Positions 52,596 to 53,297 of a stretch of DNA of 64,000 bases are shown here, in pieces. The position numbers were made by a program, and so were the translations under genes. Location of the stretch: NCBI GenBank assembly GCA_008729055.1, contig SDUX01000003.1:1364001-1428000 (forward strand). Reading direction: 5' to 3'. Below the pieces are notes generated by a model that did not search any database, had not been told where the DNA came from, and saw nothing but the letters and a program-made list of their open reading frames with translations. The DNA comes from Pyropia haitanensis (taxonomy: Eukaryota > Rhodophyta > Bangiophyceae > Bangiales > Bangiaceae). Within the stretch, counting starts at the first letter, position 1. Each line of letters opens with the position of its first letter.

Positions 52596-52997
52596 CAGAC
52601 GGCCGCCGCAGCGGTGTGGACAAGTAGACGGGGCTAGGGGCAGATCATGTCTTACGGGCTTGCTCCCTCCCCAGCTGCGCGCGGCAACTGTCCTCCCCCT
52701 GCACCAAGCCGTACGTCACAGTTGGTTGGGGGGCACCTGCTGGACGAGCAACATGGCGTCGTGGTCCCGGGCGCGATGCACTGCAACCGCTCATTGTTTT
52801 GCCGCCCCTCCTTCTTGAACAGTACCGGAGTACATCTGTGGTATTGTCAAGCAGGGAGCTCTCGCAGCAGCATCAGTACACCACCTAGCCATGTCAGCGC
52901 TGATGCCAACCCAATGGATCGCCCTATCTCTTACGTGAGGAGGCAGCGGCATGGTGTGATCGAGTATGGACAAGACGATGTGAAAACACAAAAGAGA
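52596..52997. other. Intergenic region, F-box gene to tRNA-Ala
   Basis: About 400 bases of moderate GC between the 3' end of the F-box gene and the tRNA gene. I see no gene or repeat in it. Confidence 0.5.
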
Positions 52998-53094
52998 TGG
53001 AGCAGCAGGGGCTATCGTGTTAATCGATCCCTGGACCTCGCGCACTCACGGACGCTCATGCGAAGCGCGCACTCTACCACTGAGCTACAACCCC
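52998..53094 (-). tRNA. tRNA-Ala (anticodon CGC) with two introns
   Basis: Read on the minus strand, the 5' acceptor GGGGTTG is 53094-53088, the D arm 53085-53071 and the anticodon stem 53069-53065/53043-53039. The anticodon CGC is 53062-53060. A 14-base intron (53058-53045) follows position 37, the canonical site. Going on, the T-stem CAGGG (53033-53029) and loop ATCGATT (53028-53022) are followed by 11 bases that fit nothing (53021-53011). After them come the perfect T-stem partner CCCTG (53010-53006) and a 3' acceptor CTGCTCC with discriminator A at 52998. This arrangement gives the G3-U70 pair that specifies alanine. Without removing the 11 bases, the T arm cannot fold and G3-U70 is lost. 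One T-T mismatch remains in the acceptor. Intron borders may shift by a base. Confidence 0.8.
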
Positions 53095-53297
53095 AATCGA
53101 TGAGCACGGTGCAAATTGATAAAATTTGAAGATAGTCTTTACTGTGAATGACAGCAAGCAGTTCCAGTACATGGGTCGAGTCCTCGACCGACGTTGTGCA
53201 GCTCGCTTGTCGTCTTTGTTGCTCATTGGGTGCCGAACATATGAACAGTCGTTAACGTCATCCGTACGGCCAGTACCCCTCGCATCACCGAGCGACT

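Follow-up and report, generated by a model that had tools for sequence, protein, structure and literature searches.

A tRNA-Ala(CGC) gene of the red alga Pyropia haitanensis with a probable second intron in its T arm, and a pairing rule common to most ectopic tRNA inserts found in the genome

The window analysed here, meaning the whole 64,000-nucleotide stretch C2:1364001-1428000 of the 52.9-Mb genome of Pyropia haitanensis (136 contigs; 67-77% GC along the window), carries on its minus strand a tRNA-Ala(CGC) gene that is interrupted twice, once after position 37 and once within the T arm, which raises the question whether the second insert is an intron that the alga removes or the mark of a gene that no longer works. 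From the gene sequence, the pattern among its paralogues, a pairing rule measured across the genome and the splicing enzymes encoded there, we infer a working tRNA-Ala(CGC) gene whose precursor would contain two protein-spliced introns (probability about 0.92). Its parts are the following.

52998..53094, minus strand: tRNA-Ala(CGC) gene, 97 nt, two introns, 72 nt when spliced (sequence, and ARAGORN after insert removal)
53045..53058, minus strand: canonical 37/38 intron TGAGCGTCCGTGAG, 14 nt; its removal would join 53059 to 53044 (sequence)
53029..53033, minus strand: T stem 5' strand (49-53), CAGGG (sequence)
53025..53028, minus strand: exon half of the proposed 4-bp central helix (54-57), AUCG (pairing analysis and T-arm fold)
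53023..53024, minus strand: two exon bases (58-59) ahead of the proposed 5' cut (sequence, pairing analysis)
53012..53022, minus strand: ectopic T-arm intron at 59/60, TAACACGATAG, 11 nt, splitting the B box (sequence and paralogues)
53014..53017, minus strand: intron half of the central helix (-6 to -3), CGAU, 4/4 pairs with AUCG (pairing analysis, minimum-energy T-arm fold)
53006..53011, minus strand: base 60 (C) and T stem 3' strand CCCUG (sequence; identical in the uninterrupted paralogue L011)
53111..53130, minus strand: AT-rich stretch 17-36 bases upstream, a possible TATA-like Pol III element (upstream AT profile)
52983..52993, minus strand: two TTTT runs, a likely Pol III terminator (by eye)

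The gene ends (G1 at 53094, A73 at 52998), the T loop AUCGAU (53028-53023), C60 (53011) and CCCUG (53010-53006) were read directly. The 14-base intron that the initial annotation had placed after position 37 is TGAGCGTCCGTGAG at 53058-53045, and other elements described there were likewise recovered: a 5-bp T stem restored by both cuts, the pair G3-U70, the A discriminator and an insertion that splits the B box. For the T-arm insert, the proposed length of 11 nt stood, but its position at 53011-53021 was one base off, since the uninterrupted paralogue L011 (GGGATCGATCCCC) and the register of the helix place it best at 53022-53012; according to L011, base 60 is C and not U. Boundaries in general were set by comparison with siblings and by the geometry of the stems, and a shift of one base is possible for some inserts. 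Site 59/60 is the T-arm counterpart of 37/38, lying after the sixth loop base past a 5-bp stem. A U6-U67 mismatch, seen by eye in the acceptor stem, is common to 9/9 CGC copies and is therefore not a decay of the window copy.

The gene was reported neither by ARAGORN, also with introns allowed, nor by Rfam at the gathering score, and ARAGORN called tRNA-Ala(cgc) at the locus once the T-arm insert was removed. Across 58 interrupted loci, ARAGORN gave the correct isotype for 0/58 before and 48/58 after removal, so that gene finders can miss such tRNA genes. Deletions shifted by -3 and +3 bases still recovered 48/58 and 40/58 loci, and those shifted by -6 and +6 recovered 12 and 21; not being sharp at shifts of three bases, the program cannot fix the insert boundaries. 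At 182-264 the window also holds an uninterrupted tRNA-Leu(CAG), identical copies of which lie on contigs C3 and C7.

A DNA search of the genome for the tRNA-Ala(CGC/AGC) family gave 17 rows representing 16 genes (nine CGC and seven AGC), a gene whose anticodon intron measures 63 nt accounting for two of the rows. The CGC copy with a 63-nt anticodon intron is L018 (G000:C3:6725616-6725772); the anticodon introns of all nine CGC copies end at their 3' side in CCGTGAG, and the remainder varies. A 37/38 intron, 14-63 nt in length, is present in 16/16 genes found, and 13/16 carry a T-arm insert of 11-14 nt at the same site, which excludes chance as the source of the window insert. These inserts are all different except in the duplicate pair L013/L014. 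The three genes lacking one, L011 (CGC) and the duplicate pair L019/L020 (AGC), have exactly the spliced sequence. By eye, two Ala(UGC) genes (L061, L126) are also free of a T-arm insert. Exons are identical in eight of the nine CGC genes, L015 differing by one base (base 58), while the flanks have diverged to 30% matching over 50 nt upstream and 32% over 45 nt downstream (ungapped, 35 pairs). Exons that stay identical while flanks and inserts diverge give the picture of working rather than decaying genes.

Ectopic inserts also occur in tRNA genes of other isotypes, with counts that are lower bounds: the Rfam tRNA search covered the best 63 of 471 candidates, with the window's own tRNA-Leu not among the matches listed, and the last DNA search scored the best 40 of 51 candidates. 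In the T arm (59/60) there are at least 44 distinct introns in at least 51 gene copies, seven of these being 5'-truncated Asp, with lengths of 10-44 nt and in the isotypes Ala, Asp, Asn, Gly, Glu, Gln, Lys(UUU), Val(UAC), Ser, Trp and Ile. In the D arm (about 20/21) we found at least 17 distinct introns in at least 18 counted copies (Lys(CUU), Arg, Trp, Asn, Asp, Ser and Leu), a count that leaves out the Asp copies L095 and L096, which by eye share the D-arm intron of L093. Three genes combine D and T introns (L093, L103, L108) and three combine D and 37/38 introns (L104, L106, L107), the window gene having 37/38 plus 59/60. Copies with and without the intron exist side by side for Ala, Asn, Gly and Trp in the T arm (by eye also Ser and Ile), and for Lys, Arg, Asn and Asp in the D arm (by eye also Ser and Leu). 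Apart from the pairs judged by eye, the uninterrupted copies match the spliced sequence.

Other families were found only in interrupted form. All 15/15 tRNA-Asp loci found carry a T-arm insert (eight with an intact 5' end, seven truncated), as do all loci found of Glu(UUC) (2), Gln(UUG) (2), Ser(CGA) (4), Val(UAC) (1) and Lys(UUU) (1), and among the loci found there was no uninterrupted homologue for Asp (T arm), Glu, Gln(UUG) or Ser(CGA); as the searches give lower bounds, only for Asp does this lack carry much weight. A D-arm intron is present in 3/3 full-length Trp loci of the L066 kind. Contigs C76 and C83 hold two different, uninterrupted tRNA-Trp genes and also uninterrupted tRNA-Thr(GGU) (L024 and L041 on C76, L036 on C83), perhaps in assembled sequence of organellar or bacterial origin. 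Some single loci look damaged: L105 (G000:C7:1142295-1142379) has a tRNA-Gly body with the anticodon GUC (aspartate) and a T-arm intron, a mutated copy or pseudogene, and L111 and L110 are divergent Arg- and Trp-like loci that look like decaying copies.

Could the window copy and the other T-interrupted copies then be pseudogenes with random insertions, the work being done by uninterrupted paralogues such as L011? The initial annotation had regarded an uninterrupted tRNA-Ala(CGC) gene, coupled with a lack of reads from this locus, as evidence against an intron; L011 does lack the T-arm insert, but it keeps its 37/38 intron. Its existence means that the window copy is not proven essential, and the 5' truncation of 7/15 Asp loci also suits a pseudogene origin. 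Against this stand the conserved exons amid diverging flanks and inserts, the placement of the inserts at one site under a common pairing rule, and the 15 Asp, two Glu(UUC), two Gln(UUG) and four Ser(CGA) loci among which none is uninterrupted, and we consider a pseudogene origin very improbable. With dozens of interrupted genes, including every tRNA-Asp gene found, the alga probably must excise the inserts to make protein.

In the classical bulge-helix-bulge the cut falls after two bulge bases beyond a 4-bp helix. The register for the pairing test was chosen from this cut position: intron bases -6 to -3 were compared with the four exon bases that two further bases separate from the 5' cut. 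Introns of the same sequence entered the test as one (47 T-arm copies giving 41, 15 D-arm copies giving 14). The motif is described as two 3-nt bulges and a 4-bp stem (PMC3978253). In the window intron, AUCG and CGAU pair 4/4, all Watson-Crick, in the relaxed hBH form with a loop replacing the inner helix. Across the T arm, 136/164 cells pair as against 71.6 ± 5.8 in shuffled introns (0/20000 as high; 41 distinct introns), with 18/41 introns at 4/4, 18/41 at 3/4 and 5/41 at 2/4, the last being Lys(UUU), Trp, one Ser(CGA) and two Ala(AGC). In the D arm, 52/56 cells pair as against 27.3 ± 3.7 (0/20000 as high; 14 distinct introns). Two tRNA-Leu copies other than that of the window, L125 and L131, have D-arm introns that pair 4/4. 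As introns within a family may share ancestry, all these shuffle figures overstate independence.

The fit depends on the loop sequence of the particular gene in which an intron sits, because exchanging T-arm introns between genes gave 124.6 ± 2.9 cells and reached the observed value once in 20000 exchanges (42 times by the 4/4 count). The same exchange among D-arm introns gave 41.6 ± 2.7, the observed value again being reached in 1/20000 (10 times by the 4/4 count). For both arms the expected register was the highest of 35 tried, at 3.32 (T) and 3.71 (D) pairs of 4, and the next-best registers, about 3.0 (T) and 3.1 (D), were the diagonal neighbours that extend the same helix. Six distinct introns fetched after the rule had been noted paired in 21/24 cells as against 10.7 in shuffles (0/100000 as high), the three D-arm introns all at 4/4 and the three T-arm introns at 4, 3 and 2. 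Introns at 37/38 fit less, yet above shuffles, with 68/100 cells as against 41.7 ± 4.6, a mean of 2.72 of 4 and a single 4/4 (25 distinct introns, two more seen by eye, L128 and Thr(UGU) L059, standing outside this count).

Accordingly placed in the fold, exon bases 54-57 of the window precursor would pair with intron bases -6 to -3 atop the T stem and form a relaxed bulge-helix-bulge, with a 3-nt 3' bulge AG^C, the 4-bp helix AUCG/CGAU and a loop in which the 5' cut would follow AU. The initial annotation had seen the ATCG/CGAT helix, which stands, and had found no perfect bulge-helix-bulge to draw; a relaxed form (hBH plus loop) is possible and corresponds to the T-arm fold of lowest energy, with the T stem, the 4-bp helix and the 3-nt 3' bulge. 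Minimum-energy folds hold the 4-bp helix in 2/6 CGC T arms (window and L010) and show other pairing in 4/6, and for the whole unconstrained window pre-tRNA the prediction keeps the 4-bp helix and does not form the cloverleaf. Fold energy alone separates real from shuffled introns weakly: the T-arm mean is slightly below that of shuffles, with 10/200 shuffles as low (37 introns of at most 21 nt, four longer ones being left out).

Since the T stem can form with the insert present in the fold, the insert might instead stay in the tRNA after maturation and enlarge its T loop. However, inserts of 10-44 nt, siblings with the same exons and no insert, and the near-invariance of the T loop in elongator tRNAs make such retention scarcely credible. 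Three further origins were rejected: self-splicing group I/II introns, the inserts being only 10-44 nt; transposition of introns between isotypes, the longest shared run being 9 nt as against 7-10 in 60 shuffled sets; and chance insertion, the pairing lying far above shuffles.

The genome encodes the catalytic subunits of the tRNA splicing endonuclease, with two PF01974 loci above the cut-off that we take, by motif, to be of the Sen2 and Sen34 type. Among 7993 scored candidates, three are relatives of the Sen2-like protein, of which a single one is named; it comes from Pyropia vietnamensis and is 67% identical. A Sen54-like gene is also encoded, as is RtcB, whose two pieces are separated by 190 bases on contig C3 (7.35 Mb), and a Sen15 candidate (L114) scores 17.3 bits, 30.4 with neighbours in frame, and 29.1 as a translated piece (cut-off 22). 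A recognisable Sen15 is reported as lacking in Cyanidioschyzon merolae (PMC3978253), and if our candidate is real, absence of Sen15 cannot generally explain why red algae accept ectopic introns. We propose that the endonuclease would cut both sites of the window precursor, Sen2 and Sen34 acting as catalytic subunits and Sen54 and the probable Sen15 perhaps taking part at 59/60, and that RtcB would join the exon ends.

Removal might also take another route, by a different nuclease or by the catalytic subunits without Sen54 and Sen15, as proposed for C. merolae (PMC3978253); the latter form overlaps our preferred explanation and differs solely in which complex cuts. The canonical enzyme is considered to find its cut site by measuring from the body of the mature tRNA, a mode that fits 37/38 but not 59/60 (PMC3978253), and the 4-bp rule is stricter at the ectopic sites than at 37/38 (T 3.32 and D 3.71 as against 2.72). 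The geometry nevertheless matches described endonuclease substrates and both catalytic genes are present, so that we regard another route as unlikely. Excision by the splicing endonuclease remains our preferred reading, and the proposal of a true ectopic intron in a red alga, already made in the initial annotation, gains support from the many interrupted tRNA genes, their single bulge-helix-bulge geometry and the encoded enzymes.

An insert that splits the B box also touches on transcription. Upstream of 87 distinct tRNA genes, AT content is 0.59-0.80 at -50 to -27 and at least 0.56 everywhere from -52 to -27 (loci with a non-matching start string being excluded), as compared with about 0.28 for the window overall, which served as the only reference. 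At -50 to -27 it is 0.46-0.82 in 39 T-interrupted genes and 0.58-0.83 in 48 others. A TFIIIC B-block search gave one weak match (24 bits, cut-off 22) in a family that also matches bacterial control genomes. An upstream-led Pol III start has been suggested for C. merolae (PMC3978253) and is plausible in this alga as well, where transcription of the window gene probably leans on the upstream AT-rich element and less on the split B box.

Some tRNA-Asp genes appear to contain, in tandem in the D arm, an element of roughly 7.5 kb with frames that are reverse-transcriptase-like (RVT_1 28.3 bits, slightly below the cut-off of 29.6). It was located at these places.

C3:1575060-1597698: 7.5-kb element (L076, L077, L078, L088, L117, L118)
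C40: 7.5-kb element (L095, L096, L119, L120)
C120: 7.5-kb element (L093, L094, L121)

Truncated 3' parts of tRNA-Asp follow, spaced 7.5 kb from one another. Over 3.4 kb, the C120 copy shows 99.6% identity. The last truncated part, L088, has a different T-arm intron and flank, so that 3' halves and introns may be exchanged when the element inserts; non-LTR elements that target tRNA genes have been described (PMC4640811). A broader picture, for and against which we see about even odds, is that the ectopic introns are obligatory and turn over fast: Asp, and probably Glu(UUC), Gln(UUG) and Ser(CGA), would exist only interrupted, other families would contain copies with identical exons, some of them interrupted and some not, at three sites that obey a single bulge-helix-bulge rule, and a tRNA-Asp-targeted retroelement would exchange 3' halves together with their T-arm introns.

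Ectopic bulge-helix-bulge introns are already known as a kind, with 59/60 among the sites in archaea (PMC4090602) and T-arm introns in C. merolae (PMC9602550). In the latter, more than 62% of tRNA genes have introns, at least 12 have several, and three have D, anticodon and T-arm introns together (PMC9602550). P. haitanensis resembles C. merolae in having nuclear D- and T-arm introns besides 37/38, several per gene, at bulge-helix-bulge-type sites, and in Sen2/Sen34/Sen54 (PMC3978253); it differs in being bangialean, in its multicopy families with intron-present and intron-absent siblings of identical exons, and in its Sen15 candidate, none having been found there (PMC3978253). Non-canonical introns of Crenarchaeota likewise include site 59/60 (PMC4090602), and archaeal introns take strict and relaxed forms (PMC3978253), whereas here the host is eukaryotic, the families are multicopy and there is no sign of intron transposition between families. 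The nucleomorph of the cryptophyte Guillardia theta, a red-algal relict nucleus, also has D- and T-arm introns, whose excision was shown by RT-PCR; they measure 3-24 nt (PMC4090602), as compared with 10-44 nt in the T arm here, and many are described as having no defined bulge-helix-bulge (PMC3978253), whereas the T-arm introns here mostly follow one 4-bp rule. Titles and abstract openings among the matches listed in the red-algal and seaweed tRNA-intron literature contained no nuclear tRNA introns in Bangiales. As far as these matches show, the host group, the scale, the siblings with and without introns and the measured rule are new.

Eukaryotic ectopic tRNA introns have so far come, according to reviews, mainly from one extremophile alga and relict nuclei. 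The multicopy bangialean set provides natural pairs with and without introns, in which the exactness of the cut and the question of which substrates obey the strict 4-bp rule can be addressed, and it bears on the possibility that an enzyme believed to take its measure from the tRNA body also acts by motif. If the turnover picture is true, the paralogues of P. haitanensis would allow the gain and loss of tRNA introns to be followed in a eukaryote.
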